64,000 nt of DNA, taken from Streptomonospora salina. GTDB lineage: Bacteria; Actinomycetota; Actinomycetes; Streptosporangiales; Streptosporangiaceae. Shown here one piece after another: positions 28,758-55,754 of the stretch. The notes under the pieces were generated by a model. It was given only the letters and a program-made list of their open reading frames with translations, was not told the origin of the DNA and did no database searches. The DNA is taken from NCBI RefSeq assembly GCF_014204715.1, contig NZ_JACHLY010000001.1:3432501-3496500 (forward strand). Direction: 5' to 3'. Each line of letters opens with the position of its first letter. Positions within the stretch are counted from its first letter, which is position 1. Both the position numbers and the translations under genes were made by a program.

Positions 28758-29253
28758 ACACGTTGGGTAGTGATTCCAGTTCAGACGTTTTCGGTCGCTT
28801 TGATGCGAACCGATTAGGAAACTCCGGGTGAAAGGCGACACATGCCCGGCCGCCCGTACCGTGCCCGTCCCGCTCGCCCGCCGGCGGGCGGTCTCCCTTC
28901 TGCGGTATGGATTCGCAGGTGAAAGCCCGTCCAGAGTTCCCGTGGCGCCCCTTTCCCGAGACACCGCCGACACAGAAACCTTCCTGTAGAGCGATAGCTT
29001 CCTTTCCGGCCGGACCGCAATCGGTGCGTTGACCGTGCCTGATTCAGGGGCTTTGCTGGTATCGCCCGGTGTGTACTGAACGCTCCCTTGCTCCTGAGGC
29101 ATGCCGGTAGGTACACCGTGCGGGTCAGACACGAAACACGGAGAGGTAGACGCGGCCGAGATGCGTAACAATGGCGCACCATAGGTGTGGGATAGACAGG
29201 GCACCGGGAATCCGGCCGGTGGACCGCGTCCACGAGGGGATGGGGAGGCGTAG

Positions 29254-30231
29254 ATGGCTCGCAAGCCGACCGCGCGGCGCGGCGGCGGACCCGTCGAGGA
29301 TCCCGCCGAGGCGGGCGGCCCCGACGAGTTCGGCGACTCCCCGCGGCGCAGTCGCCGCCCCCGCGCCGGCGCCGGCGGGCGCTGGTGGATCGGGGTCGGA
29401 CGCGCGGTGCTGTGGGCGTTCATCATCGTCGTGATCTTCAACGGCGTCTGGATGCCGCTGCGCGGCGGACTGGCCGAACCCGCGACCGACGACGAATCCG
29501 ACGCCCAGCAGGAGCCCGACTTCCCCGAGACGGCCGCCTCCGGCTTCGCCGCGCGCTTCGCCGGCGTCTACCTCGACGCCGACGGCCTGGAGGACGAGGA
29601 GCGCGCCGACGCCCTGGCCGCCTTCGTCCCCGAAGGCCGGGCCGCCTCCTTCGCCGCCGAGGGCCAGTCGGTCAGCGGCGACGGCATCGGCGTCGTCGGG
29701 GTGGACGTCCGCGACGAGGAGAACGCCGTCGTCACGCTCAGCGCCGACGTCGACGGCGCCCCGATGAGTCTGGACGTGCCGATCTACGCCGCCGGCCCCG
29801 ACAGCTTCGTCGTCTCGGGTCCGCCCGCCCTGCTGGCCGCTCCCGGCCGGGCCGAGCTGCCCGCCCCCGAGACCGCCGACACCGACGCAGCGGCGCGTGA
29901 CGAACTGCTTCCGCGGCTGGAGCGCTTCTTCGGCGCCTACGCCGAAGACCCCGACTACCTGTCCGACTTCGTCGAGCCCGGCGCGCGCATCGACCGGCTG
30001 CCTCCCGACACGCTCGAATTCGTCGAACTTGTGGACATCGTCGTGCCCGCATCCGGTTCGGGGGACAATGATGGGCGGCAGGTCACGGCCGAGGTCGTAT
30101 GGACCCCGGCCGGGGCCGGAGAGGACGCTTCCAGCGAACTCACCCAGAGTTACGAACTCACCGTCGTCAAGGACGGAGAGAGCTGGTATGTGCGAGAGAT
30201 CCATGGAGCCCCGCAGTCGTTCGGCGAATAG
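29254..30231 (+). CDS. TcpC-like conjugation-apparatus protein
   Basis: A 325-residue bitopic protein. A basic/Gly-rich cytosolic N-terminus (~45 residues) is followed by one transmembrane helix (VGRAVLWAFIIVVIFNGVW). Two extracytoplasmic domains follow, reminiscent of the tandem NTF2-like (VirB8-like) folds of TcpC from Clostridium pCW3-type systems. In such systems TcpC is a bitopic inner-membrane scaffold. The recognition rests on topology, cluster context and the general SGFAARFAGVYLD / WYVREIHG pattern rather than a strong motif. It is the first gene of the cluster; ATG 29254 follows GGGGATGGGGAGGCG. Confidence 0.7.
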   Translation: MARKPTARRGGGPVEDPAEAGGPDEFGDSPRRSRRPRAGAGGRWWIGVGRAVLWAFIIVVIFNGVWMPLRGGLAEPATDDESDAQQEPDFPETAASGFAARFAGVYLDADGLEDEERADALAAFVPEGRAASFAAEGQSVSGDGIGVVGVDVRDEENAVVTLSADVDGAPMSLDVPIYAAGPDSFVVSGPPALLAAPGRAELPAPETADTDAAARDELLPRLERFFGAYAEDPDYLSDFVEPGARIDRLPPDTLEFVELVDIVVPASGSGDNDGRQVTAEVVWTPAGAGEDASSELTQSYELTVVKDGESWYVREIHGAPQSFGE

Positions 30232-30278
30232 CCGCAGCGACACCCCGCAGGGCCGCGATGCCGAGGAGACGAGCAACC

Positions 30279-30317
30279 ATGCAACCCAGATGTGAGACGC
30301 GAGGGGACGGCGACTGA
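30279..30317 (+). CDS. possible 12-residue leader peptide
   Basis: An ATG at 30279 sits behind GAGGAGACG. It opens a 12-codon frame (MQPRCETRGDGD) that stops one base before the ATG of the next gene. The next gene lacks a good ribosome binding site of its own, so translational coupling through this small frame would explain its expression. There is no homology, and it could be chance. Confidence 0.25.
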   Translation: MQPRCETRGDGD

Positions 30318-30318
30318 C

Positions 30319-30624
30319 ATGCACCCCCTGCTTACGGGTCTCACCCCCGCGGTCGCCGACGCCGCGGGCCCCATCGCCCTCGCCGCGACCGAGAACGCCC
30401 CGGACACCTCCGGGCTCGCCGACTTCCTGCGCGGGTTCTTCGGCCCCCTGTTCCTGGTCATCGTCTCCGTCGTCGCCATCTTCTTCCTGTTCACCAGGGA
30501 GATCACCCGATTCGCTCAATTCATCATTCTGGCGATCTTCATCGGGATCGTGTTCTACGTGCCGGGGATCATCGAGGTGACCGCGCGGGCAATCGCCCAA
30601 GCGATGGGCGTGTCGACCGAGTAG
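30319..30624 (+). CDS. small membrane protein of the conjugation-like cluster
   Basis: A 101-residue protein with two or three hydrophobic segments (FFGPLFLVIVSVVAIFFLF and FAQFIILAIFIGIVFYVPGII) and an N-terminal Ala-rich start. Size, topology and place between the TcpC-like and TcpE-like genes suggest a pilin-like or TcpD-like channel component, comparable to VirB2/VirB3-type subunits. This is inference from context; no sequence motif proves it. The stop is 12 bp before the next GTG, which has AGGAGG. Confidence 0.6.
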   Translation: MHPLLTGLTPAVADAAGPIALAATENAPDTSGLADFLRGFFGPLFLVIVSVVAIFFLFTREITRFAQFIILAIFIGIVFYVPGIIEVTARAIAQAMGVSTE

Positions 30625-30636
30625 GAGGCCACAGAC

Positions 30637-33600
30637 GTGGACCTGCCCACGTACACCAACATCTGGCGGATCGAGAAGAAGCTCTACAAGCTGTATGACT
30701 TCCGGCTTCCCCAGCCGGTCTCGGTCGTCTTCATCGGTGTCGTCGTGGGCGTGGCCTTCGTCTGGGTGATGCTGCTGCGCCTGGTCGGCGTCCCGCTTGA
30801 GATGCCGCTGCACGTCGTCTACATCGTTCCCCCTTTCGTCATCGCCTTCCTGGCCACCCGTCCCGTCATCGAAGGCAAGCGGCTCAGCGAGCTCATCTCC
30901 TCCCAGACCCGCTACCTCGCCGAGCCCCGGACGTTCACGCGGCTGCGCCCTGAGCGCGAATCCGGCCGAGCCGCGGTCATCGTGCGCGTCTGGCACCGCG
31001 ATCCCCGGGCCGGACCGCTGCCCGAGGCCGCCGTACCGGCACCCGCACGCGGGCGCGCCCGCTCGGGTGAGGGCGAGCCGGAACCGGCCGTGGAGGAAGA
31101 GCAGCAGCCGGTCCGGGCGGCCGCAGCGCCGCACCGCACGGCCGATCAGGCGCCTCCGCTCGCCGATGCGCTGCCGTTCGCGTCGCCGCTGGACGAGCCC
31201 GCGCCGGCGGAGCGGGAGCACACCGCCGACCCGCTGGGGGAGGGCGAGGAGCCGGTGCCGGCGGCCGCGCCGTCCGGCCGCGGGCCCGCGGATCCCGCGA
31301 GCGGGTCCGGGCCCGAGCTTGAGCACGAACCCGAACCGGACGCTGTTCCGGAACCGGGCGCGGGCACGTCCGGGCATATCCCCGAGTTCGCGCGCCCCGC
31401 CACCGGGCCCGAGCCTGCGGCTGCCGCCGAGCCGGTCGCCGAGCCGGTCGCCGAGCCGGTCGCCGAGCCGGTCGCCGAGCCGGTCGCCGAGCCGGTCGCC
31501 GAGCCGGTCGCCGAGGAGGCGCCGGCCGACGGGCACGCCGTTGCCGCCGCTTCGTCGGCCGCCGAATCCGCACCGCCCGACCTGCGGCGGGAATGGGAGT
31601 ACGACCGCGAGACCGCCCAGTCGGCACCCGAGCGCGGTCTGGGCGTGCGGATCCTGAACTACTTCGGGTTCGCCCTCCACAAGGCGCCCCCGGCCGGTGC
31701 CGATCCCGACACCCGGAACCGCGGCCCCGCTCCGGGCACCCGCGGCCCCGTGACCGGGCCGATCCCCGGTGCGGCCCGTACCCCCGCCGAACTCGCCGAG
31801 CGCTTGGCCGCGGCCGAGAGCCCGGCACTGAGCGAGGACGAGCACTCCCGCGCGGCAGCCGACGCCGAGCGCGCGGCCGCCGGGGCCGAACCGCCCGCGG
31901 CCGTCGACCGCCCCGCCGCGGGCGACGCCGCGGCCCGCCGGCCCACCGAGGAGATGATGGCGGCGCCGGTGCCCGCCGAGCCCGAGCCGGAGCGCGAGCA
32001 CGCCGCAGCGTCCGAGCACGACGAATCGGCCGCACCCGCGCTCGGGCCGCAGCGCCGGCTGCGCGGGCGCGCCCAAGGAATGGAGGTCGCCCGCCGCCTG
32101 GAACACGCACGCTCCGACGAACGCGCCCCGGGGCAGGCCGCCCGGTCCGCCGCCTCCGCCCCCGCGGACCCGCCCGTCCGGACCGAGCCCGTCCGCGAAC
32201 GCGCCCTCCCTCCCGAACCCGCCGAACCCGGACGCGGCGCGGGAGAGGCCGCGCCGACCGGCCGCCCCTCTCTGCGCGAGCGCCGCGCCCAGCGCCGCCC
32301 GCACGCCGCGCCGTGGGACCTGCCCGTCCCGCTGGACGGGGGCTCCGACGAGCACGCCGACGCCCCCGACCCGCAGCGGCGCGGAGAGGACACGGCGCCG
32401 GCAGCGGAGACCGCGGGGCCGGATTACGCGGACGCGCGGGATGGGCAGGACGCGCTGGGCGGATCCGCGGGTGCCCCGGCCGCGCGGGAGGCTTCGGGCA
32501 AGCCGTCCCTGCAGCTCGACCACGGGACCGACGAGCACAACAGCCTCTCCGGACTCGTGCGCGTGTCGGCGGCCTCCGCCGAGCGGGGGCGGACCGGTAC
32601 CGGCACCGAGTCCGCCGGTGAGGGCATCCGTCCCGGGACCGGTACCGGCACCGAGCCCGCCCGCCCCGAAGCCGATGCCGACCGGGACGCCGCGAGTGGC
32701 GGCGACGAGCAGCGGCCTTCGGACGCCGACCAGGCGGACCAGGTCGACCAGGCGGCCCCGGCGGACCGGGAGGCTTCCGGAAAGCCGCCGCTGCAACTCG
32801 ACCACGGCACGGACGCACACGAGAACCTGGCCCAGGTGGTACGGGCCTCTACCGCGGTGCCCGGTAGCGCAGACCGGTGGACCGGGAACGCCGCCCGGGG
32901 CGGGTGGGACGGCGCCGACGACGCCGCGCCCGGCCGCCGGCCGGACGAGGACGCGGAACCGGTCGCGGCCCCCGGATCCGCGGCGGAATCCGAGGCGGAA
33001 TCCGCGCCGGAGGAGACCCGGGCGGCGGACCACGGCGTCCGCGAGGAGCCCGACGGGGAGCCCGCCGCGCCGGGCGGCGAGCGGCAGAACGGGCCGCCGC
33101 GCACCGCAGACGACCGGGACGATCACGCCGACCAGTTGGCGGTCCTGGACCGCTACCTCGGCCACACCGACACCCCGCCGCCGCCTCGCCCCCGCTTCCA
33201 GGAAGCCGGCGGCCCCGAGCCCCGCCGACCGGTGGCCTGGTTCACCGACACCCCGGAATCCCGCGGTACCGACCGCGAGGACGGAACGAACGCCGACGGC
33301 GAGCGCAGCGGCCGGCTCTCCGACGGCGGGGGCCACGGGCCCGCGCCCGCCGCCGAGCACCCGGCCGACGACGACCGGCCGGGTGCACCCCGGCAGGAGC
33401 GCACCGCCGAGAGCGCCGAGCCGGCCGCAGAGGACGGCGGCCGCGCCGCCGGCGGCCACCATGCCCTTCCGCCGCTGGCGGGCCCTCCGGTCGAAACCGG
33501 CGCCGCCCCGTCGCTGCGCGTCGCCGCCACCACCGGTGACAGCGACCGCCCCGACGGCATCGAACCGTCGGCCCCCGCCGAACCGTCCGCCCCCGCCCCC

Positions 33601-35460
33601 GCCACCGCTGACGGAGGGGACGCCCGGGATGCGGCGGACCAGCCGCCCCTTCCGCCGCTGGCCGGGCCTCCGGACGGAACCGACCGCAGAGCGCAGCCCG
33701 GAAGCGGAGCGGGCGCCGGCCGCAGCGCCGAACCCGACCGTGGTACCGACGTCGACCGTGCGGTCGACGGCACGGACCGCGCGGCGCCGGCTGCCATGAC
33801 CGGCAAACCCTCGCTCGAACTCGACCACGGCACCGGTGAGCACGCCTCCTTCGGCCGCGTCGACACCCCGCACCGCCCGGCCCCGGCATCGGCCCCGGAC
33901 ACCCGCGCGGACGCGGCCGGACGGCCGCGCCCCAGCGGCGCGGAGCCCGACCAGGCCGCCCGCCGCGCGGACACCGCCGACCCCCCCGAGCCCGCCGCGG
34001 CCGCCCCAGTCGGCGACGACGCGGGCACCGGCGCCGACGCCGGTACCGATACCGCCGACGCCGGTCCCGATGCCGTCGGCGGCGACCGGCACGGCGACCG
34101 GTCGGACCGGCTCTCGCGCACCATCCGGTCCAGCCCCACCGGCGGCTCGCCCGCGATGTCCGCCGACACCGCCGACACCGACACCGGCGGCGCCGATGCG
34201 CCGTCCCCGGCGGTCGGCGACCGCCCCGTCCGCAACGCCCCATCCGCCGACATCGACGACGGCGTGTTCGCGCGGGTCGCCCACAACGCCCGCCGGCTCA
34301 GCCACCTGTTCGGCCAGACCCCGCCCGGTACCCCGCCGGTCCCCCGGACGGACGCCGACCCCGCGCCCGGCACCGCCGCCCAGCCCGACGGCGGCGGCTC
34401 CACCGGCAGCCGGAGCGACGACGAAGCCGACAAACCCGAACTGCAGCTCGACCACGGCACCGGCGAGCAGCAGCGGATGAGCGCGCCCTCCGACGGCGAC
34501 CCCGCGGCCCAGGCCCCCTCGGCCGACTCCGACCGGTCGGCGTCCGGCGACCCCAGCGGCACCCGCGGCTGGCGCCGCCTGGCCCGCGTCGTCACCGGCG
34601 GTTCCCCGGCGGCAGCCAAGTCCGACCTGCCCGACGGCGACATCGGCCGGCTGCGCACTCCCCTGCCGGCCGCGCGCAATGTCGTCGTGCTCGGCTGCAC
34701 CGGGGGAGCGGGCCAGACCGCCACCACCCTCATGCTCGGCCACACCCTCGCCGCTTACCGCGACGAGCGCGTCGCCGCCGTCGACGTCAACCCCGGCAGC
34801 GGCGGCCTGTCGCGGCGCATCCGCTCCGAGACCCCCGAGACGGTCACCTCGCTGCTGGCCAACGCCGACTCCGTGCACACCTACGCGGGCATGCGCCGCT
34901 ACACCTCCCGCCTGCAGTCCACCGGCCTGGAGATCGTGGCCACCCTCGACGACCCGTACGTGCAGACCCTCGACGACCGCGACTACGCGGGCCTGGCGGG
35001 GCTGCTGGAACGGTTCTACGAGGTCACCGTGCTCGACCCCGCCGCCACCGGCGTCGCGCGGGCCCTGCCCGCCGCCGACGGCATGGTGCTGGTGGCGCCC
35101 GCCAGCGAGGACGCCGCGCGGGCCGTCGCCATGACATTCGAATGGCTCGACGGCCACGGATACGCCGCGCTGCGTTCCACCGCGGTGGTCGTCATCAACG
35201 GGGTGAGCAAACGCAGCCTCGCCGACGTCGACGCCGCGGAGCAGGTGGCGCGCGGCCGCTGCCGCGCCATCGTCCGGGTGCCGTGGGACGACCACCTGGC
35301 CGCGGGCAAGGTCGTCGACGTCGGCGCGCTGCGCTCCACCACGCGGCGCGCCCACGGCGCCCTCGGCGGGGTCCTGGTGCGCGGGCTGGAAGGCTCCGCG
35401 CCCCCCGGAGGGCCCCACCCGGGCGGCCCCCGGCGCCGAACGTCGGAGGCCCGCCGATGA
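30637..35460 (+). CDS. giant TcpE-like / disordered / MinD-ParA-like fusion protein
   Basis: A 1,607-residue protein. Residues 1-115 form a TcpE-like membrane module (YKLYDFRLP, then two hydrophobic helices and LISSQTRYL). Residues ~120-1,335 are Ala/Pro/Asp/Glu/Arg-rich and probably disordered. They include seven EPVA repeats (~265-292), two LPPLAGPP copies and four KPxLxLDHGT motifs at about 622, 716, 1057 and 1266. Residues ~1,345-1,590 resemble a MinD/ParA P-loop fold (NVVVLGCTGGAGQTATT, VAAVDVNPGSGGLSRRI, VVVINGV). Both lysines normal for the deviant Walker A are absent, with T and Q (residue 1360) in their place. It may be a regulatory, non-hydrolysing domain. GTG 30637 follows AGGAGGCC. 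Confidence 0.75.
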   Translation: MDLPTYTNIWRIEKKLYKLYDFRLPQPVSVVFIGVVVGVAFVWVMLLRLVGVPLEMPLHVVYIVPPFVIAFLATRPVIEGKRLSELISSQTRYLAEPRTFTRLRPERESGRAAVIVRVWHRDPRAGPLPEAAVPAPARGRARSGEGEPEPAVEEEQQPVRAAAAPHRTADQAPPLADALPFASPLDEPAPAEREHTADPLGEGEEPVPAAAPSGRGPADPASGSGPELEHEPEPDAVPEPGAGTSGHIPEFARPATGPEPAAAAEPVAEPVAEPVAEPVAEPVAEPVAEPVAEEAPADGHAVAAASSAAESAPPDLRREWEYDRETAQSAPERGLGVRILNYFGFALHKAPPAGADPDTRNRGPAPGTRGPVTGPIPGAARTPAELAERLAAAESPALSEDEHSRAAADAERAAAGAEPPAAVDRPAAGDAAARRPTEEMMAAPVPAEPEPEREHAAASEHDESAAPALGPQRRLRGRAQGMEVARRLEHARSDERAPGQAARSAASAPADPPVRTEPVRERALPPEPAEPGRGAGEAAPTGRPSLRERRAQRRPHAAPWDLPVPLDGGSDEHADAPDPQRRGEDTAPAAETAGPDYADARDGQDALGGSAGAPAAREASGKPSLQLDHGTDEHNSLSGLVRVSAASAERGRTGTGTESAGEGIRPGTGTGTEPARPEADADRDAASGGDEQRPSDADQADQVDQAAPADREASGKPPLQLDHGTDAHENLAQVVRASTAVPGSADRWTGNAARGGWDGADDAAPGRRPDEDAEPVAAPGSAAESEAESAPEETRAADHGVREEPDGEPAAPGGERQNGPPRTADDRDDHADQLAVLDRYLGHTDTPPPPRPRFQEAGGPEPRRPVAWFTDTPESRGTDREDGTNADGERSGRLSDGGGHGPAPAAEHPADDDRPGAPRQERTAESAEPAAEDGGRAAGGHHALPPLAGPPVETGAAPSLRVAATTGDSDRPDGIEPSAPAEPSAPAPATADGGDARDAADQPPLPPLAGPPDGTDRRAQPGSGAGAGRSAEPDRGTDVDRAVDGTDRAAPAAMTGKPSLELDHGTGEHASFGRVDTPHRPAPASAPDTRADAAGRPRPSGAEPDQAARRADTADPPEPAAAAPVGDDAGTGADAGTDTADAGPDAVGGDRHGDRSDRLSRTIRSSPTGGSPAMSADTADTDTGGADAPSPAVGDRPVRNAPSADIDDGVFARVAHNARRLSHLFGQTPPGTPPVPRTDADPAPGTAAQPDGGGSTGSRSDDEADKPELQLDHGTGEQQRMSAPSDGDPAAQAPSADSDRSASGDPSGTRGWRRLARVVTGGSPAAAKSDLPDGDIGRLRTPLPAARNVVVLGCTGGAGQTATTLMLGHTLAAYRDERVAAVDVNPGSGGLSRRIRSETPETVTSLLANADSVHTYAGMRRYTSRLQSTGLEIVATLDDPYVQTLDDRDYAGLAGLLERFYEVTVLDPAATGVARALPAADGMVLVAPASEDAARAVAMTFEWLDGHGYAALRSTAVVVINGVSKRSLADVDAAEQVARGRCRAIVRVPWDDHLAAGKVVDVGALRSTTRRAHGALGGVLVRGLEGSAPPGGPHPGGPRRRTSEARR
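31429..31512 (+). repeat. 12-bp tandem repeat (7 copies) encoding EPVA
   Basis: Seven identical head-to-tail copies of GAGCCGGTCGCC encode (EPVA)7 inside the giant fusion gene. Perfect DNA identity suggests recent slippage expansion, so copy number probably varies between strains. Confidence 0.9.
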
Positions 35461-35540
35461 CCCGCGGCGGCGCCCCGCCCCTACGCCGGGGAGCGCGCCA
35501 CCGGACCACCACGCCCACGATCGGGGAGGATCAGCGATGA
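35457..35540 (+). CDS. possible 27-residue coupling ORF
   Basis: ATG 35457 overlaps the stop of the fusion gene (ATGA). The 27-codon frame, rich in Arg/Thr/Pro, ends in a TGA that overlaps the start of the VirB4-like gene (ATGA). The double overlap would couple translation across the 76-bp gap. However, the downstream gene has its own GGGGAGGAT site. There is no homology, so this may be chance. Confidence 0.25.
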   Translation: MTRGGAPPLRRGARHRTTTPTIGEDQR

Positions 35541-38050
35541 ACGGCAGCAGGAGCGGTACCCGCCTCTCCGTCCGCTACTTCGACGACCGCATCCTGCTCA
35601 GCGATGCCGAGGCCTGGGCCTACTTCCGCCTGCCCACCGTGTCGTACGAGTTCGCCACCCCCGACGAACGCGAAGCCCTGGCCACCAACATCACCATCGC
35701 GCTGGCGGCCATCCGGATGAACGACGCCGAAGTGCACCTGCGCGTCGCCCACCGCACCTACCCCGCCGCCGAATGGGCCACCCGGCTCGACGCCACATCC
35801 GACTCCGGGCCCGGCTGGTTCGACTACCTCGACGAGATGTACCGGCACGTGTGGGCCAAGGACTTCTGGACCAAGGAGGTCTACCTGGGTGTGCGCCTGG
35901 GCCAGCGCGGCGGTGTGCGCGGCCAGCTCTCCCAGGGGGTGTTCGCCCAGTTCATCAGCGCCTACCAGCGCACCGAGCAGGTGCTGGGCCTGGAGGACGA
36001 CGCCATCGACGCCAAGGAGCTGGCCAACTGGACCGACCAGGCCGAGCGCCTCGGCCGGGCGCTGGCCGCCAGCTCGCTGCACGCCCGCCACGCCACCTCC
36101 GACGAGATCGCGTGGCTGATCCGGCACGCGGTCACCGGCACCATCGAGGAGTCCCGCCGCTCCGCCGCGGGCCGCCGCACCTGGGGCAAGGGCGAAATCG
36201 AGCAGCTGGTCGAAGGCGTCGTCCACAACGGCCGGTCCATGCTGCGGCTGGACCAGCCCACCGGCTCCACCTACGTCGCCTACCTGTCCTTCTCCCGGTT
36301 CCCCGACCTGATGCCCTTCCCCGACGGGGAGCCGTGGCTGCACTACGCCGACGCGCTGCCGTTCCCCGTGGAGCTGTCGCTGCGGATGAAGCTCGTTCCG
36401 CCGGCGAAAGCCAGCAAGGACGTCGGCCGCAAGCTCGCCCATGCACGCGACATGGACGCCCACATCCGCGAAGCCGGGGCGGACGCCCCGATCGCGCTCG
36501 CCGAGCAGATCGACGCCGCGCGCATGCTGGAGCACGGCATCACCAAGGAGCGGCTGCCCTTCGTCTACGGCTGGCACCGCCTGATGGTGTCGGCCCCCAC
36601 CGAGAACCTGCTGGTGCAGCGGGTGGAGGCGGTCGTCGAGCACTACCGCGACATCGGCATCGACGTCGTCAACTCCACCGGCGACCAGTTCTCGCTGTTC
36701 TCGGAGTCGCTTCCGGGCGACCGGATCCGGCTCAACGCCTACGCCCAGCGCCAGCCGCTGCGCACCATCGCCGGCGGTATGCCCACCGCCACCATCGACT
36801 TGGGCGACCGCCGCGACTCGGCTGGCGCGGGCTGGACCGGTCCCTACATCGGCGAGACCATCGGCCGGGCGCGCTCGGTCGTGCATTTCGACCCGATGGT
36901 GGCGGCGGCACGCAACCGCCCCACGGCCATCGCGATCACCGGCGAGCCCGGTGGCGGAAAAACCACGCTGGCGCTGCTGCTGATCCACCAGCTCGCGCTG
37001 CGCGGCGTCACCGTCGCCGCCATCGACCCCAAGGGCGATGCGGAGTCGCTGGTCCGGCTGCTGCAGCGGCGCGGCCGCAAGGCCCGGATCATGTCCATGG
37101 CCTCGGCCGAACCGGGGTTGCTGGACCCGTTCGCCTTCGGCGACGACCTGTCCGCGCAGAAGACCATGGCCACCGAGACGCTGCGGCTGCTCCTGCCCAG
37201 AATGAGCGAGGAACGGGAATCGGCGATGATCCAGGCGGTGGCCGCCGTCGCCAACCAGCCCCGCCCCAGTCTCGCCAAAGTCGTCGAGCACCTGGAGGAC
37301 TCCGACGACCCCGCCTCCCGCAACCTCGGTGCCGTGCTGCGGTCCATGTCGGAGATGCGGCTGGCGGGCCTGTGCTTCGATCCGCAGGGCGAAACCCAGA
37401 TCGACACCGAAGGCTGGACCACCGTCTTCACGCTCGGCGGACTCACCCTGCCCGACTCCGCCGTCCAGCGTGACGACTACTCCTACGAGCAGCGGCTCAG
37501 CGTCGCCCTGCTCTACCTGGTCAGCCAGTTCGCCCGGAGGCTGATGAACGGCCTCGACCGCCACCTGCCCAAAGCCATCTTCCTGGACGAGGCCTGGGCC
37601 GTCACCTCCACGCCCGAAGGCGCCAAACTCGTGCCCGAAGTGTCTCGGATGGGGCGTTCCCGCAACACCGCCCTGATCCTGGTCAGCCAGAACGCCGGCG
37701 ACCTCCTCAACGAGCAAGTCACCAACTGCCTGTCCAGTGTGTTCGCCTTCCGCTCCAGCGAGCGCCACGAGGTCGAAAGCGTCATGTCGCTGCTGGGGGT
37801 CGATTCCTCGGAGGAGCACCAGGCGATGCTGCGCAACCTCGGCAACGGCGAAAGCATCTTCCGCGACCTCGACGGCCGCGCTGGACGGGTCGCCGTGGAC
37901 CTGGTGTCCGAAGAACTCCTGGAGTGGCTGGACACCAACCCCACACGGAACCGGCCGGACGACATCCCCGACGACGACGGCGCAGGCGCCGGGCCCCTGG
38001 TTGCGACAGGCGGCACCGGCGGTACCAGGAGGATGGGGCAGGACCAGTGA
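35537..38050 (+). CDS. VirB4/TcpF-like conjugation ATPase
   Basis: An 837-residue cytosolic/membrane-associated ATPase that powers assembly or transport in type IV secretion-like machines. Walker A is GEPGGGKTT (469-477) and Walker B AIFLDEAW (680-687). The IDPKGDAESLV and LILVSQNAGDLL segments are typical of VirB4/TraC-type and HerA-related ATPases. The ~450-residue N-terminal domain (SVRYFDDRILLSDAEAWAYF start) matches the actinobacterial branch. The GTGA overlap with the next gene indicates a tight operon. No FtsK/TcpA-type coupling protein is present besides this. Confidence 0.88.
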   Translation: MNGSRSGTRLSVRYFDDRILLSDAEAWAYFRLPTVSYEFATPDEREALATNITIALAAIRMNDAEVHLRVAHRTYPAAEWATRLDATSDSGPGWFDYLDEMYRHVWAKDFWTKEVYLGVRLGQRGGVRGQLSQGVFAQFISAYQRTEQVLGLEDDAIDAKELANWTDQAERLGRALAASSLHARHATSDEIAWLIRHAVTGTIEESRRSAAGRRTWGKGEIEQLVEGVVHNGRSMLRLDQPTGSTYVAYLSFSRFPDLMPFPDGEPWLHYADALPFPVELSLRMKLVPPAKASKDVGRKLAHARDMDAHIREAGADAPIALAEQIDAARMLEHGITKERLPFVYGWHRLMVSAPTENLLVQRVEAVVEHYRDIGIDVVNSTGDQFSLFSESLPGDRIRLNAYAQRQPLRTIAGGMPTATIDLGDRRDSAGAGWTGPYIGETIGRARSVVHFDPMVAAARNRPTAIAITGEPGGGKTTLALLLIHQLALRGVTVAAIDPKGDAESLVRLLQRRGRKARIMSMASAEPGLLDPFAFGDDLSAQKTMATETLRLLLPRMSEERESAMIQAVAAVANQPRPSLAKVVEHLEDSDDPASRNLGAVLRSMSEMRLAGLCFDPQGETQIDTEGWTTVFTLGGLTLPDSAVQRDDYSYEQRLSVALLYLVSQFARRLMNGLDRHLPKAIFLDEAWAVTSTPEGAKLVPEVSRMGRSRNTALILVSQNAGDLLNEQVTNCLSSVFAFRSSERHEVESVMSLLGVDSSEEHQAMLRNLGNGESIFRDLDGRAGRVAVDLVSEELLEWLDTNPTRNRPDDIPDDDGAGAGPLVATGGTGGTRRMGQDQ

Positions 38051-40494
38051 CCGACACCGCGACGCCGACCGCCGCGTACGCCTCCGAGGACGACGCACAA
38101 CCTCCGTCAGCCGCACCGCCCCGCCGGCGGCGGCGCCGGGGCCCGAGGCGCTTCAAGCGCAACCTGGTGATGGCTGCGCTCATGCTGGCCTTCCTGATGA
38201 CACCGATCGGCAGCGCCCAGGCCGCCCCGGTCTGCGAAGGGGAACCCGCCCCCCAGCCGGAGGCCGCAGGCAGCGGAGCGGACGGCCTGCTGGTGCCGCC
38301 GCAGGCCGCCGAAACCGCCGCGCAGTCCCCTGACGGCCTGCCCCCGGACTCCAGTCTGTACGGGCAGTACGGGACCGCCGGGCAGCAATGGCACGTGGTC
38401 CGGGAATCCTGCGTCGACAAAATGGGCTCGGCGGCCGTCGCGACGCTGAGCAACACGGCGTGGAACCTCTCGAAGACCATCAACCAGTCGACGATCACGG
38501 TTTATCAGGCGGCGACCTCAGACGGACTCCTCGCCAGTTTCAACACGCTGGTCGAAGACGTCGTCATGCAGCTCCGAGAAGGAATCTGGCGCCCGCTGCT
38601 GCCGACGGTGATCATCCTCGGTGCCGTCTGGCTCGGGTGGTACGGACTCATCCGAAAGCGCGTCACCCTCACCATCGAGAGTGCGGTCTGGATGGTGCTG
38701 GCAACCACGCTCGGAATGTGGATCCTCGTCAATCCGGGACAGATCCTGGGCTACGCGGGAACTATAGTGAACTCGGGCGGCCAGCTGGTGAATTCGGCGA
38801 TTTCGAGGGTTGCGACGCCGAGTGGCGGAGCCACGTGTCCAACTTCTGCGCCGGAGATTGAAAAGGCCAACTGGGAGAGCGAAAGTGACTTCGCTGTCCG
38901 AAAAAATGCTCAGATGTTGTGGTCCGGACTTGTCTGCCGCCCTTGGGTGTCTGGAGAATTCGGGAGTGGTGTGGCTGCAAACTCCGCTTCCGAGCGTTAC
39001 GCAATGCCCTTACTTGAGGCGCAAGGGATCAGTCGTGCTGAGCAGCAGCAAATCGCCAATGGTGAGACGGATCCCACGGAGCTCGTGGAGCAAAAACAGG
39101 AAGACTATCAGGAAATCGCTAGTGGAATCGAGCGGACTTACCCAGAGGTCTACCCGCTATTCGAAGGCGAACAGCAAGGGAGTCGTCTGGGTGTTGCTAC
39201 ACTTGCATTGTTTGCGGCAGTTTTTGCTGGCGGGCTAATACTTGCTGCGTCAGTGGCACTGATTGTCTTGAAAATCGGATTTCTACTCTTGCTTTTGCTT
39301 TCTCCGATATTCTTGCTCATTGGGATTCACCCTGGATATGGCCGGACGGTGCTGCTGCGCTGGTTCGAGATGTTGCTTGGATTGCTTCTCAAGCAGATAT
39401 TCATCATGCTTCTCGTATCGCTTTTGGTTGTTTGTTACGGTATGGTAATGGCTACGAATCTGGGATGGGGGCTGCAGATGATCCTGCTTGCCCTCTTTAC
39501 CCTCGCTCTGTTCATATACCGACGGCCGTTCGCTCATCTCTTTCAATCCGTGAATGCGAATACCTTCACGTCGCGGATGGTGAGTGACGCTGCATCGAGC
39601 AGCGCCTTGAGCAAGAGCTCGAACGTGCTGCCTCCCGTGGCCTACATGCGGGCTCAGAAGTGGGGCCTCAAGCGGAGCCCTCAGCTTGCCGGAGCGGCGG
39701 CCGCGGTTCCGGCCGGTGGAGGCGGAGCGGCGGCCGGTGCCGGGGAAGCGGCCGAGGCGCCCCGTGGCGGCGGAGTCCCGCAGCAGGAAGCGGCCGAAGC
39801 AGAGGTCGGCCGCGCCCGCGGCGACGCCGGGCGCGGGCGTGCCGGCGGCGGCTACGGCAGGGTGCGCGGCAATTCGGCCCCCCCGCCCCTCAACCTCGGG
39901 CAGGACGGAGAACGGGGCCAGCAGCGGGCCGCCGCGGCCGGCCGCTCGACGTCGGAAGCGCCACGACTCAGCGAGGCCGCGTCCGGAGGAGCGGGCAACG
40001 GCAGCGCCCGCGCCGCTTCCTCCGGATCGGGAAGCATCCCGCCGCGCCCCGCCGGCGGTTACACCGGAAGCGGCGATACCGGCTGGTCTTCGGTGTTCGG
40101 CAGCGGAGGCGGCGGCGACCAGCGGTCGGCTCCGCAGCGGTCCTCGGGCGACGAGGCGCCGTCGGGCGACGGGGGAGCGCGCCGTGCCGATCCGAACTCC
40201 GGCGCCGGCATCTTCCGCGGCCGCGAGGCCACACCGCCGCAAGGAAACGTCAATCGCGGCTCCCGGTGGGGCGGTCCCCGATCCAAGCAGGGCCGCAGCG
40301 CGCCGCCCCCGCGCGAACCGCGCCAGCCCCGCCCCGCACCGTCGAAGGGGTCCGGTGAGGGCGGAAGCTGGATCAGCGGATCCGGCGACAAGAACAACGA
40401 CGCCCCGAGCAGCCCCTTCTGGACCGGTACTGAATCCCAGCGCCGCCGCGACGTCCGGCGCGACCGGCCGTTCTGGTTGCGGGACGAAGACTGA
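38047..40494 (+). CDS. VirB6/TrbL-like polytopic channel protein (TcpH-like), mosaic base composition
   Basis: An 815-residue protein. A basic leader and a signal-like helix end in SAQAAP. An extracellular segment with paired cysteines follows, then two groups of membrane helices (LLPTVIILGAVWLGWYGL and later). A Leu-rich cluster spans about residues 385-505. A ~300-residue Gly/Ala/Arg/Ser-rich cytosolic tail ends in WLRDED. This is the topology of VirB6/TrbL or TcpH channel proteins. The core region around 38,780-39,640 is clearly lower in GC (codons such as TTG, AAA, ATA, TTT) than its flanks, so the gene looks recombinant. GTG 38047 overlaps the previous stop. Confidence 0.75.
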   Translation: MTDTATPTAAYASEDDAQPPSAAPPRRRRRRGPRRFKRNLVMAALMLAFLMTPIGSAQAAPVCEGEPAPQPEAAGSGADGLLVPPQAAETAAQSPDGLPPDSSLYGQYGTAGQQWHVVRESCVDKMGSAAVATLSNTAWNLSKTINQSTITVYQAATSDGLLASFNTLVEDVVMQLREGIWRPLLPTVIILGAVWLGWYGLIRKRVTLTIESAVWMVLATTLGMWILVNPGQILGYAGTIVNSGGQLVNSAISRVATPSGGATCPTSAPEIEKANWESESDFAVRKNAQMLWSGLVCRPWVSGEFGSGVAANSASERYAMPLLEAQGISRAEQQQIANGETDPTELVEQKQEDYQEIASGIERTYPEVYPLFEGEQQGSRLGVATLALFAAVFAGGLILAASVALIVLKIGFLLLLLLSPIFLLIGIHPGYGRTVLLRWFEMLLGLLLKQIFIMLLVSLLVVCYGMVMATNLGWGLQMILLALFTLALFIYRRPFAHLFQSVNANTFTSRMVSDAASSSALSKSSNVLPPVAYMRAQKWGLKRSPQLAGAAAAVPAGGGGAAAGAGEAAEAPRGGGVPQQEAAEAEVGRARGDAGRGRAGGGYGRVRGNSAPPPLNLGQDGERGQQRAAAAGRSTSEAPRLSEAASGGAGNGSARAASSGSGSIPPRPAGGYTGSGDTGWSSVFGSGGGGDQRSAPQRSSGDEAPSGDGGARRADPNSGAGIFRGREATPPQGNVNRGSRWGGPRSKQGRSAPPPREPRQPRPAPSKGSGEGGSWISGSGDKNNDAPSSPFWTGTESQRRRDVRRDRPFWLRDED

Positions 40495-40524: not shown

Positions 40525-41217
40525 ATGCCCAGATCTCTCAGTGAAGGTCAGCAGCGCCTCGTGTTCGGCGCTCTCGTCGTCGTGCTCGTGGCATTCGGCA
40601 TCTACCTGAGCCTGGGCGGGTGGAGCGACGGCTCCGGCGACGACGCGGCGTCCTCCGGGGCCGCCTCCGAGCCGCCCGCCGTGGGCGGCGAGCAGGCGAG
40701 CGGTACCGGGGACGTCGCGCCGCCGAGCCCGATCCCCACCACGGCCGCCCAGGACATGCCGGTGATGGAGTGGTTCCCCTTCAGCGAGGAGGAGTTCAAG
40801 GCCGCGGCGGCGACAGCGCAGGAATTCGGCCGGTCATACGGGACCATCGACTATTCGGGGTCCCCCGAGGATTACTACGCCGGCATGCAGGAGCTCGCGA
40901 CGGACGACTACGCCCAGACCCTCGCCGAAAGCTCCGGCGCCAGCGCCCTCTGGCAGGACATGGCCGATCAGGAGGCCGTCTCCGAGGGACGGGCGAACGT
41001 CGAATCCGTCCGCACGTTCGGCGACGATTCCGTGACGTTCGTGGTGCAGGTGCAGTCGATCACCGAAGGCGAGGACGGAACTACCGACGACCTGGGCGAG
41101 TTCGCCGTCACCGTCGCGGATCAAGGCGGCGAGTGGCGGGTCTACGACTTCCAGCCCTCCGATGCCGGGAACCTCGGCGACGTCCCCGATCAGCCGGGAG
41201 ATTCGGCAGGTGACTGA
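40525..41217 (+). CDS. membrane-anchored accessory protein of the conjugation-like cluster
   Basis: A 230-residue bitopic protein. It has a short N-terminus, one transmembrane helix (LVFGALVVVLVAFGIYLSL) and a Ser/Gly/Pro linker. The extracytoplasmic ~150-residue domain (WFPFSEEEFKAAAATAQEFG to GGEWRVYDFQPSD) has the size and ending of an NTF2-like/VirB8-like fold, a weak inference. Its stop directly abuts the ATG of the wall hydrolase gene. Confidence 0.65.
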   Translation: MPRSLSEGQQRLVFGALVVVLVAFGIYLSLGGWSDGSGDDAASSGAASEPPAVGGEQASGTGDVAPPSPIPTTAAQDMPVMEWFPFSEEEFKAAAATAQEFGRSYGTIDYSGSPEDYYAGMQELATDDYAQTLAESSGASALWQDMADQEAVSEGRANVESVRTFGDDSVTFVVQVQSITEGEDGTTDDLGEFAVTVADQGGEWRVYDFQPSDAGNLGDVPDQPGDSAGD

Positions 41218-42390
41218 ATGATCTCTTTGTTCGCCGGACCGGCCGCCCGGAATGCGGACACCGGGGCCGCCGTCACGCGGTTGGCGATCGCCGTCGGCCT
41301 GTTCCTGCTCGGCGCGATCGTGGTCGGCGTCGTCATCGTTCCGCTGACAGCGCTGAACCCGGGGATCATCAGCTCGGTCGGAGCGTTGCAATGCACCTCC
41401 GATGGAGCGACTGACCAGGCGGAGAGCAGCGGCTATGCCGAGGACTCCATCCCGGAGGACTATCTGGACCTCTACCGTTCGGTCGGGGAGGAGAAGGACG
41501 TTCCCTGGAACGTCCTTGCCAGCGTCGGACAGGCCGAGAGCGACCACGGCCGCTGGCCGGGGGCGGGTATCACCGAGGGCCACAACGATGCCGGCGCTGC
41601 GGGCCCCATGCAGTTCGGCGCTCTCGACGGCTCGGCCGCGGGTAACAGCTGGGGAGGCGAGCCGGTCATGGACGCCGACGACCGGCCCGAGGAGGGCTAC
41701 GGCCAGGACGGCAACGGCGACGGAACCGTGAGCGTCTACGATCCCGCCGATGCGATCCCCGCGGCGGCCGACTACCTCCTCGCCCACGGTGCGCAGGAAG
41801 ACATGGACGAGGCGATTTTCGCCTATAACCATTCGTGGGGGTACGTCGACGAGGTCACGAGCTGGGCCGACCGCTACGCTGAGGGCGACTTCGAGACCAG
41901 CGGATCCGTCCAGCGGGCCGTCAACTGCGAACTCGACGACGAAGGCGAGCCGATCAGTCTGCTGGCGTCGAGCGATCTGGCGCAGGACGTCGTGGAATGG
42001 GCGATGGACCAGCGCGGAAAGCCGTACGTGTGGAGCGCTACCGGCCCGGACGCATTCGACTGCTCGGGGCTGACACAGGGCGCGTACGGGAGCATCGGTG
42101 TTTCCATTCCGCGGGTGTCCCAAGACCAGTGGGCCTTCGGCCCGAAGATTCCGGAGGGCGAGGAACAGCCCGGAGACTTGGTCTTCTTCGATGTGAACGG
42201 CCCCGGCGGAACGCCCGGGCACGTCGGCATGGTCGTCGGGGACGGGCTCATGGTCGAGGCATGGTGCACCGACTGCGGGCCGATCGCGACGCGCGAGTAC
42301 GATGCTCCCGGCCGGTCTGCCATCCTCGGGTTCACCCGCCCTTTGGAGCATCCCGACGTGAAGGCTCAACTGGGTGACCGGGCACAGTAG
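41218..42390 (+). CDS. bifunctional transglycosylase / NlpC-P60 peptidoglycan hydrolase (CwlT/TcpG-like)
   Basis: A 390-residue membrane-anchored enzyme that would open the cell wall for the envelope-spanning complex. One N-terminal membrane helix (AIAVGLFLLGAIVVGVVIVPL) comes first. A lytic transglycosylase domain (about 75-220) follows, with the catalytic glutamate in VGQAESDHGRW and AAGPMQFG. The NlpC/P60 endopeptidase domain (about 250-375) has the nucleophile in FDCSGLTQ and the histidine in GHVGMVVGDG. The same pairing occurs in CwlT of ICEBs1 and TcpG of pCW3. It is the strongest functional link to conjugation-type systems besides the VirB4 ATPase. Confidence 0.9.
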   Translation: MISLFAGPAARNADTGAAVTRLAIAVGLFLLGAIVVGVVIVPLTALNPGIISSVGALQCTSDGATDQAESSGYAEDSIPEDYLDLYRSVGEEKDVPWNVLASVGQAESDHGRWPGAGITEGHNDAGAAGPMQFGALDGSAAGNSWGGEPVMDADDRPEEGYGQDGNGDGTVSVYDPADAIPAAADYLLAHGAQEDMDEAIFAYNHSWGYVDEVTSWADRYAEGDFETSGSVQRAVNCELDDEGEPISLLASSDLAQDVVEWAMDQRGKPYVWSATGPDAFDCSGLTQGAYGSIGVSIPRVSQDQWAFGPKIPEGEEQPGDLVFFDVNGPGGTPGHVGMVVGDGLMVEAWCTDCGPIATREYDAPGRSAILGFTRPLEHPDVKAQLGDRAQ

Positions 42391-43288: not shown

Positions 43289-43918
43289 ATGGTCTTCACG
43301 AAGTCGCTTCCCTGCCGCGGCGACGACGCCGTGGTGCTCTTCGCCGCCGCCCAGTTCGGACTTGTCAGCCGTGAGCAGGCCCGGCGGGCCGGGCTCTCCT
43401 TCGCGGATATCTCCGCGCGCCTGCGCCGGGGAGCGTGGGCGCGGACGCTGCATCGGGGTGTGTTCCGGGTGCTGGACTACGGCACGTTGGCCTCGCCTCT
43501 GAAGCAGGCCGTCGTCGCGGCGCAGTTGGCGCTGCCTACCGGCGCGTTCGCCTGCCGGGCCACCGCCGCGCGGCTGTGGCGGTTGGACGGGCTTGCGCCG
43601 TGGGACGGCCACACGGTCGATATGGCTGTTCCGGGCCGGCGGACGTCCGCACCGCCTCCGCCCTCCACACCTTCCCGGGCGGTGCCGCCCGCCGTCCGGA
43701 TCCATGCGCTGCGCGTGTGCGACAGCGACATCGCCGTCCGGGCGCCGATCCGCCTGACCGGGGTGGGGCGGACGCTGCGCGACATGGCGGCGTGCAGCCC
43801 GGCACGCACGCGCACGCGCCTGCGCGGTTCCGCGGTCGGGCGCGGGCTCGTCGTCTCCGGTAGGCCCGACGGGCGGTCGCGGTGTCGTGGGCGGCCGCCG
43901 CCGGTGTCATCCCCGTGA
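43289..43918 (+). pseudogene. truncated AbiEi-type antitoxin / DUF559-associated protein
   Basis: The first ~95 codons match the N-terminal winged-helix domain of type IV AbiEi antitoxin-like proteins (VVLFAAAQFGLVSREQARRA, RRGAWARTLHRGVFRV, HGVFR-type signature). The middle (PIRLTGVGRTLRDMAACSPA) resembles the start of the second domain. After that the reading becomes Arg/Pro-rich without homology, and the frame runs into the 3' end of the convergent kinase gene. The C-terminal half has evidently been lost by deletion or frameshift. Confidence 0.55.
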
Positions 43919-48348: not shown

Positions 48349-48406
48349 TCGGGGGTGTCATAGGGGACACTCTCGGCGCCGAGAGTGTCCCCTATGACAC
48401 CCCCGA
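48349..48406. other. 58-bp perfect loopless palindrome upstream of Wadjet
   Basis: Positions 48349-48377 are the exact reverse complement of 48378-48406 (centre CTCGGC|GCCGAG). It lies about 130 bp before jetA, within otherwise non-coding DNA. It could insulate the operon as a terminator, be the scar or end of a mobile element, or be a binding site. Its perfect identity indicates recent origin or selection. Confidence 0.75.
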
Positions 48407-48537
48407 GGCGGCCGGATCGCCCACAGCAGCGGCGGTGTGGCCGCCCCCGGCGGCCCTTGTCCGCCCCACCCTCCCCGCTGCCCCGATTGCCGGATCCGTC
48501 GGACGCGGTGCCCGCCCATCGGGTACCAATGAGGGTG

Positions 48538-50157
48538 ATGTCTGCCGACCGCGCCCCCTCTGCGGCTCCGGAATCCGCATCGGGTTCCGCGTCTGTCGAT
48601 TACCAGCCCTTCGCCCACCTCACCGCGCCCAACGCGGAGCTGTACCGGGCGATCATGGGCGTGTTCGTCGCGGAGAAGGAACGCTTCACCGTCCACCTGC
48701 GGCCCGAGGACGTGCACCGGCTGCTGCCCGCGGACCCGGGCGTCGACGCCGACGACACCGTCAAGGCGCTCGACCGGCTCGCCGAGTGGGGCAACCTGCG
48801 CCCCGACCCCGACACCGGGCGGGTCACCGCCGTCGAGGACTTCTACCGGCGCCGCTACATCTACCAGCTCACCCGCGCGGGCGAAGCCGCTGAGGAGGCG
48901 CTCGCCGCCTACGACTCCGGGCTCGGCCGGCGCGGCTCCCTGCAGTCGGTGGCCCTGGCCGACATCGCGGCGCGCCTGCGCGAGCTCCTCGCCTGGGCCG
49001 ACCCTGCCTCCGACGCCGCCGAACCCGACCCCGCCCTGGTCCACCGCGCGCTGCGCGACCTGGCCGGACGGTTCGGCGAGCTCGCCGACAACGCCCGCGC
49101 GTTCATGGGTTCGCTCCAGCGCACCATCGATCTGCACGACGCCGAGGTCGAGGCGTTCCTCGCCTACAAGGACCGGCTGATCGACTACCTGGAACGGTTC
49201 ATCGCCGACCTCATCACCACCGGCTCCGAGATCGCCCGGCTGCTGTCCGACCTGGAGCGCACCGGCCCTTCCGGCGCGCGCGCCGTCGATCCGCTGCTGA
49301 CCGCGGCCGCCGACCGCGAAGCCGCCGACACCCTCCCGGGCGAGGAGCAGGGCGCCGACGACGCGGCGCGCGCGGCGGCGCTGGCCGAATGGCACCGCCG
49401 CTGGGACGGGCTGCGCGGCTGGTTCCTGTCCGCGCCCGACCACGAGCCGCAGGCCAAACTGCTGCGGTCGGCCGCCCGCAGCGCCATCCCGCAGCTGCTG
49501 GCGGTGGTCGCCGCGCTGAACGAGCGCCGCTCGGGCCGCTCCGACCGGTCGGCCGACTTCCGGGTGCTGGCGCGGTGGTTCGCCGAAGCGCCCGACGACG
49601 CCTCGCGCCACCGGCTGTGGCGCAGCGCGTTCGGGCTGCACCCGGCCCGCCACCTCACCGTCGACTCCGAAACCCTGCAAGCCCGCGAGGACGAACCCGA
49701 GACCGCCACGACGCCCTGGGACCGGGCCCGCCCCGTGCACATCAGCCCGCAGCTGCGCCGCACCGGCCAGTACGAGCGGCGGGGCCGCCCCCGCAAGGTC
49801 GCCGACCGCAGCGCCGAACGCCGCCGGCTCGCCGAGCACGCCCGCAAACAGGCCGAAGAGACCGCGGCCGCACGCGCGCGTCTGGACACCGGCGGTCGGA
49901 TCCGGCTGTCCGACGTCGCCGAGCTCGACCCCGCCGCCTTCGGCCTGTTCCTCGGGCTGCTCGGCGACGCCCTGGCGCACTGGGCCTACGACTCCCGGGA
50001 AACCTCCACCACCAGCAACGACGGCGGCCTGCGGATCCGGATGCGCGCGCTCGGCGACGGCGCCACCGCCGAGATCGCCACCCCCGACGGCGTTTTCCGC
50101 GGCCCCGACCACATCGTGGAGATCACCGACCTGGAAGGGCGGGCGGCCACACCGTGA
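48538..50157 (+). CDS. jetA: Wadjet type I JetA (DUF2397, TIGR02677-like; kleisin-type subunit)
   Basis: A 539-residue protein matching the DUF2397/TIGR02677 pattern. The N-terminus has YQPFAHLTAPNAELYRAIMGVF and VHRLL, with DFYRRRYIYQLTRAGEAAE in the winged-helix part. A long helical middle (SLQRTIDLHDAEVEAFLAYKD) and a C-terminal DPAAFGLFLGLLGDAL region follow. JetA is the MukF/kleisin-like subunit of the plasmid-restricting SMC complex. The start could be ATG 48529, GTG 48535 or ATG 48538. The stop overlaps jetB (GTGA). Confidence 0.9.
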   Translation: MSADRAPSAAPESASGSASVDYQPFAHLTAPNAELYRAIMGVFVAEKERFTVHLRPEDVHRLLPADPGVDADDTVKALDRLAEWGNLRPDPDTGRVTAVEDFYRRRYIYQLTRAGEAAEEALAAYDSGLGRRGSLQSVALADIAARLRELLAWADPASDAAEPDPALVHRALRDLAGRFGELADNARAFMGSLQRTIDLHDAEVEAFLAYKDRLIDYLERFIADLITTGSEIARLLSDLERTGPSGARAVDPLLTAAADREAADTLPGEEQGADDAARAAALAEWHRRWDGLRGWFLSAPDHEPQAKLLRSAARSAIPQLLAVVAALNERRSGRSDRSADFRVLARWFAEAPDDASRHRLWRSAFGLHPARHLTVDSETLQAREDEPETATTPWDRARPVHISPQLRRTGQYERRGRPRKVADRSAERRRLAEHARKQAEETAAARARLDTGGRIRLSDVAELDPAAFGLFLGLLGDALAHWAYDSRETSTTSNDGGLRIRMRALGDGATAEIATPDGVFRGPDHIVEITDLEGRAATP

Positions 50158-55732: not shown

Positions 55733-55754
55733 CCGCGGCGGCGCCGGACGGTAC

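Follow-up and report, generated by a model that had tools for sequence, protein, structure and literature searches.

TcpE is the VirB3 equivalent of the T4SS discussed here (PMC12857230), and VirB3-type proteins are small, of 10-15 kDa (PMC12857230). In the 64,000-nucleotide stretch of Streptomonospora salina DNA analysed here ("the window", contig positions 3432501-3496500 of a 5.6 Mb genome), one gene joins TcpE through a very long linker to a MinD/ParA-like domain in which both P-loop lysines are replaced. The locus thus raises the question of whether such a fusion is real and, if so, what a degenerate MinD/ParA fold might do on a core subunit of a secretion channel. A literature search of partial coverage found no description of a TcpE-MinD fusion. 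Coordinates below are window positions unless stated otherwise.

Results

One reading frame with three parts

The fusion gene (30637-35460, + strand) is a single stop-free frame of 1,607 aa with a GTG start and a G+C content by codon position of 0.82/0.62/0.90; the frame was re-checked, and the coordinates, strand and length given in the first-pass annotation are exact. A 2,097-aa ORF on the opposite strand (29125-35418, -) was attributed to G+C bias and rejected, as both the orthologs and the composition by codon position favour the + strand. The proposed order of TcpE, long linker and MinD/ParA fold is borne out by Pfam, the structure model, Foldseek and the orthologs.

The TcpE module occupies residues 1-125 (30637-31011, +), of which residues 5-99 match PF12648 with 76.0 bits (E 3.5e-21), over the curated cut-off of 29.9, and its mean column identity is 77% in an alignment of 12 orthologs. 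The AlphaFold model of this module contains two membrane-length helices, with a mean pLDDT of only 63 that makes it too weak for a fold search, and the helices at residues 29-50 and 59-79 are the likely membrane spans. The gene lies directly upstream of virB4, as is usual for TcpE, and it is the fusion that takes this 1,607-aa protein out of the small size range of its family.

In 80 loci from named genomes, the fusion runs in one frame in 66, is cut by a contig edge in 10 and is broken within the linker in four (L039, L044, L056 and L065), the breaks reflecting either sequencing error in very G+C-rich DNA or real changes. Of the 70 loci in Streptosporangiales that allow a test, 66 therefore have an intact fusion, and among loci picked through VirB4, this window included, both gene ends share one frame wherever enough sequence is available (12/12). 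Since the same fusion recurs in independent genomes, an assembly or frame artefact, the alternative raised at the outset, is ruled out. The locus L071 (NYMS01000058.1) is titled Glycomyces fuscus and groups inside Nocardiopsis-type sequences; the genome may be misnamed.

A ParA/MinD fold without P-loop lysines

The C-terminal MinD/ParA-fold domain spans residues 1309-1585 (34561-35391, +), as supported by alignment, AlphaFold, Foldseek and dN/dS. It opens with a conserved GWRR box at residue ~1309 that is common to canonical paralogs, so that the homology begins upstream of residue 1340, where the domain had been taken to start. At the sequence level, residues 1350-1554 match the CbiA/MinD/ParA profile weakly (E 0.0012, below cut-off), and a PDB sequence search returned marginal matches only. 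The AlphaFold model of residues 1308-1607 reaches a pTM of 0.82 and a mean pLDDT of 79, its ends being poor, and its best Foldseek match is 3ea0 of the ParA family (TMt 0.76), alongside MinD (1hyq, 0.75) and Soj (2bek, 0.73). By name, the best-matching structures are a Chlorobium ParA together with McdA, Soj and MinD, with FlhG/FleN also among the fold neighbours. The C-terminus thus has the ParA/MinD P-loop fold that the first-pass annotation had proposed, and the prospect of a prediction showing no such fold did not materialise.

The P-loop of this domain is VVVLGCTGGAGQT (GCTGGAGQT, residues 1353-1361; 34693-34719, +). Canonical relatives mostly read SLKGGVGKTT at this place and the fused clade GCTGGAGQ[TS], which corresponds to a change from lysine to threonine at 1355 and from lysine to glutamine at 1360. 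Both P-loop lysines are lost, as had been read from this one sequence, and T1355 and Q1360 are invariant in the fused clade; the domain accordingly lacks the signature and P-loop lysines of a deviant Walker A motif. Because the 80-locus set had partly been found through the pattern GCTGGAGQ, the count for the P-loop was restricted to loci picked through VirB4 or through the profile; these were chosen without reference to the P-loop, and the two sets overlap in a few genomes. In the ortholog alignment of these loci, Q1360 is present in 41 of 41, a 42nd regex match being spurious and set aside, and the motif is invariant through this glutamine except for one glycine-to-serine change in each of two loci. 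Synonymous variation is present at the motif's other codons across loci.

Outside the P-loop, the aspartate at the Walker B position, D1467 (35035-35037, +), occurs in all fused and all canonical sequences, and Asp 1383 and the Ser/Thr that follows the glutamine are likewise kept, whereas the aspartate at 1387, found in 95% of canonical relatives, is replaced by glycine. The alignment contains no conserved lysine anywhere in the fused C-domain. The fused clade invariably has arginine at 1475, 1513 and 1526, where canonical relatives mostly lack it.

Distribution, phylogeny and selection

In a profile search of 297 genomes of the class, the fused-clade C-domain was found in 28/28 same-family genomes with at least 387 bits. 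TcpE accompanies it in 27 of the 28, the contig of the remaining genome ending inside the linker, and TcpE was detected in no other genome of the 297. With the same profile, canonical relatives score about 200 bits in numerous genomes across the class, and every same-family genome holds two or more C-domain matches. The sampled fused domains form one clade (support 100/100) apart from the canonical KGGVGKT paralogs even with the P-loop columns left out, so that a single loss of the lysines, on the long stem of this clade, is the simplest account.

Simple Nei-Gojobori estimates on four pairs gave dN/dS values of 0.10-0.16 for the C-domain, 0.20-0.33 for TcpE and 0.53-0.77 for the linker. By these values the degenerate C-domain is under strong purifying selection, tighter than that on TcpE, and the linker is fast-evolving.

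The fusion lies in a chromosomal T4SS locus

The fusion belongs to a same-strand run of genes that starts with a 325-aa VirB8-like TcpC (29254-30231, +; PF12642, E 1.2e-11), which adjoins the fusion in orthologs too. It is followed by a 110-aa small membrane protein (30292-30624, +) that matches VirB2/TrbC weakly (PF04956, E 0.011, below cut-off) and is a possible occupant of the TcpD position, its place being conserved. Downstream of the fusion stands the 837-aa VirB4/TcpF ATPase (35537-38050, +; AAA_10, E 2.7e-66), which also matches TcpF NF052333 (E 6e-75, below the strict cut-off). It carries an intact P-loop, AITGEPGGGKTTLA, that is likewise intact in 13/13 orthologs, and it is 75-98% identical in all 13 nearest relatives, which include one member of a different family within the order. 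A VirB6/TrbL-like membrane protein of uncertain start codon overlaps virB4 (37924-40494, +; PF04610, E 5e-7, over cut-off) and matches the CD3337/EF1877 family below cut-off (E 5e-25). The run closes with a 230-aa protein with an N-terminal membrane anchor (40525-41217, +), which has no family match, lies beside virB6 in relatives and is a possible second VirB8-like subunit, and with a VirB1-like cell-wall hydrolase with NlpC/P60 and SLT-like parts (41218-42390, +; PF00877, E 1.4e-20). Homologs of VirB1, VirB3, VirB4, VirB6 and VirB8 thus occur together, as in MPF-FA systems, and the locus stands next to ychF, which the T4SS gene order also follows in most relatives with that stretch in view.

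The genes scanned around the cluster include no relaxase or coupling protein, and a search for the TrwC family found no such relaxase in the genome. TraG-type matches in the genome are weak and lie more than 700 kb away; among 26 family genomes, eight have no TraG-type match and one (G248) has a match about 13 kb from the fusion. The locus appears to be a chromosomal T4SS of the Gram-positive (Tn916/pCW3, MPF-FA) kind that has been passed on by vertical descent, and it is probably domesticated, as far as we infer.

Three further features were observed nearby or elsewhere in the genome. An AbiEi-like antitoxin/regulator gene (43289-43918) lies directly downstream of the T4SS genes, in a place conserved in the closest relatives. 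Matches to JetA2, JetC2 and JetD2 of the Wadjet type II plasmid defence stand in a row at 48385-57122, the expected position of JetB in this row being about 50150-51400. A second, divergent T4SS cluster in the same genome (L022, contig 2730000-2748000) encodes a VirB4 that is about 30% identical, TcpC-like and VirB6-like proteins, NlpC/P60 and a weak, unfused TcpE match in a 182-aa frame; the cluster may have arrived recently, given its lower G+C at the third position of codons.

Canonical paralogs and unfused pairs

The same genome encodes a canonical paralog with SLKGGVGKTT at about 2.86 Mb (L167:8103-10820). Profile and tree together support shared ancestry of the fused domain with actinobacterial SCO5717-like MinD, and a streptomycete canonical relative matches NF041021, "SCO5717 family growth-regulating ATPase"; this N-terminal signature found no match in the fusion protein at E up to 1.

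Two Nocardiopsis plasmids carry T4SS with a VirB4 that is 75-78% identical to the one encoded beside the fusion, and in both TcpE is a separate protein (158/169 aa), with a separate MinD/ParA bearing CIKGGVGKTT about 7 kb away. Plasmids of Pseudonocardia, Rhodococcus koreensis and Brevibacterium likewise have MinD/ParA genes of this family within T4SS regions; the annotation of one R. fascians plasmid and of one Streptomyces plasmid places no T4SS gene closer than 9 kb to MinD/ParA. The presence of a separate TcpE and a canonical MinD/ParA in one plasmid T4SS region argues for a functional link between the two. The plasmids were considered as the ancestral, unfused state, which the VirB4 tree does not support, as it nests the Nocardiopsis plasmid pair among Nocardiopsis chromosomes (98/97); a constraint holding all chromosomal VirB4 copies together was not rejected (AU p 0.153), which allows either direction. 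Whichever the direction, T4SS and MinD/ParA occur together in these sequences, fused or not.

A variable linker with repeated peptides

The linker spans residues 126-1308 (31012-34560, +) and is a low-complexity sequence rich in Ala, Pro, Gly, Asp, Arg and Glu (20% Ala, 14% Pro). By its charge and hydropathy it is classed as disordered, and order-promoting residues make up 9% of it versus 29% of the C-domain. The "~1,200 disordered residues" of the first-pass annotation are about right in length (1,183 aa), their disorder being predicted from composition. Total ortholog lengths range from 781 to 2,137 aa in loci picked through VirB4, plus the window.

Four copies of a peptide, KPxLxLDHGTxEH, are embedded in the linker: KPSLQLDHGT (32500-32529), KPPLQLDHGT (32782-32811), KPSLELDHGT (33805-33834) and KPELQLDHGT (34432-34461), all on the + strand, with their lysines at residues 622, 716, 1057 and 1266. 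The first-pass annotation had remarked on neither these peptides nor the T4SS genes around the fusion. The motif has no occurrence elsewhere in the Streptomonospora salina genome; one to six copies are found in orthologs of Streptomonospora, Nocardiopsis and close genera, and none in orthologs of Actinomadura and allies. Among 149 copies gathered by the letters LDHG, which are therefore fixed by the search, LDHG is followed by T in 149, G is present in 142 and E in 142, and the preceding K is present in 118 and P in 132. Such repetition of short peptides within a fast-evolving linker suggests putative binding sites. An aromatic segment, ILNYFGFALHK (31660-31692, residues ~342-352), lies in the first third of the linker and is conserved in Streptomonospora and one further genus.

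Discussion

A proposed docking arm on the VirB3-position subunit

The TcpE-MinD fusion is real and conserved, and its architecture is unusual; what follows on its function is what we infer. We give about even weight to the reading, drawn from sequence and predicted structure, that the long tether and MinD fold carried by TcpE form a docking arm, located in the cytoplasm, of the subunit at the VirB3 position in a vertically inherited, probably domesticated T4SS. TcpE would sit at the membrane beside VirB4, with the tether and the MinD fold on the cytoplasmic side; given that VirB3 binds VirB4 at the membrane (PMC12857230), the tether probably starts beside the VirB4 motor on that side. The MinD fold would no longer run a normal ATP-driven cycle of dimerisation and release, and would instead serve permanently for docking or as a scaffold, keeping a partner near the motor. 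Candidate partners are the canonical MinD paralog, substrate DNA, which could be contacted through the clade-specific arginines, and a cell-pole or septum factor. Where present, the KPxLxLDHGTxEH peptides may offer extra binding sites for one partner; their absence from Actinomadura and other lineages means that a general mechanism does not depend on them.

A separate ParA-type helper would in this way have been hard-wired onto the channel, and the simplest reading of the lost cycling is that recruitment to the channel no longer needs switching. The ParA-like VirC1 of Agrobacterium and the gonococcal ParA act with the T4SS relaxosome or DNA substrate (PMC8716806). The wider proposition, that an order-wide class of T4SS carries a catalytically dead MinD/ParA fold on VirB3 by a motif-bearing tether, as a docking arm serving a domesticated machine that translocates DNA or protein, we hold with slightly less than even confidence.

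Two other accounts are each unlikely in our judgement. One is the positioning idea of the first-pass annotation: by analogy with TadZ/CpaE, the fused fold might plausibly target the T4SS to hyphal tips, septa or branch points, an idea drawn from ParA-like helpers of T4SSs and from the nature of the paralogs. Its fold neighbours MinD, Soj, McdA and FlhG/FleN are positioning ATPases, the NF041021 match of its streptomycete relative concerns growth regulation, and the analogous streptomycete operon cmdABCDEF influences both spore septation and the segregation of chromosomes (PMC2782261), but positioning of the classical kind needs a nucleotide cycle that the fused domain probably lacks, and the 50 fold matches listed include none named TadZ. 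Alternatively, as a special case of docking, the fused domain might be a pseudo-subunit in a regulated hetero-dimer, with the canonical MinD paralog supplying the ATPase. The SLKGGVGKTT paralog in this genome, the two or more C-domain matches of all same-family genomes and the canonical MinD beside unfused TcpE on plasmids are consistent with such a pairing; canonical paralogs are nevertheless widespread in actinobacteria that lack the fusion, which points to another primary role for them.

The docking-arm reading assumes a domain that does not cycle, and the loss of both lysines does not by itself imply that it cannot hydrolyse nucleotide, as the first-pass annotation had supposed it might not: TadZ of Eubacterium rectale lacks both lysines yet hydrolyses ATP, using a lysine supplied by an adjacent helix, and MSMEG_3743 variants mutated at lysine are still active ATPases (PMC10482377). 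The retention of Asp 1467, Asp 1383 and the Ser/Thr after the glutamine would fit an active, atypical ATPase in which an arginine or other residue replaces the lost lysines. We consider this quite improbable, as the domain has no conserved lysine, which makes a rescue of the TadZ type unlikely, and Asp 1387 has become glycine. That the fusion is an accident tolerated without function is hardly credible: a fast-evolving linker that varies more than two-fold in length would fit it, but the C-domain is retained order-wide at a dN/dS below that of TcpE, a strong purifying selection that rules out a neutral leftover as far as sequence can.

The fused ParA-type domain most likely lost its lysines once and was kept throughout the order. 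The fusion therefore makes it testable whether the link between T4SS and ParA needs nucleotide cycling at all, and what role a conserved, apparently relaxase-less T4SS locus plays in filamentous actinobacteria.

Comparison with known systems

With TcpE of the pCW3/Tn916 and ICEBs1-type conjugation systems, the VirB3 equivalents, the Streptomonospora salina protein shares PF12648, two membrane helices predicted at low confidence and a place adjoining virB4 upstream, whereas VirB3-type proteins have neither tether nor MinD domain and this protein extends to 1,607 aa. MinD/ParA proteins of the SCO5717 kind are homologous to it over the whole C-domain, GWRR box included, and several have a long low-complexity N-terminal part; they differ in their canonical KGGVGKT P-loop, where the fused clade has GCTGGAGQ and an attached TcpE. 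Streptomyces cmdABCDEF (SCO4126-4131), a T4SS-like operon likewise located on the chromosome, encodes a VirB4-like ATPase and is conserved within a genus; mutants in it form spores poorly and fail to segregate their chromosomes correctly (PMC2782261). It is described as five membrane proteins and one ATPase, with no TcpE-MinD fusion reported there. TadZ/CpaE, likened here by description, is also a MinD-fold protein of a secretion or pilus machine, and that of E. rectale also lacks both lysines, but it is a separate protein, unlike the fused C-domain. VirC1 and the gonococcal ParA are, similarly, ParA-like proteins serving T4SS, yet both are separate proteins, unfused to a channel subunit, and the gonococcal ParA needs its Walker A box. 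ParA/MinD-type helpers of T4SS are known as separate ATPases, whereas here one is joined to a core membrane subunit.
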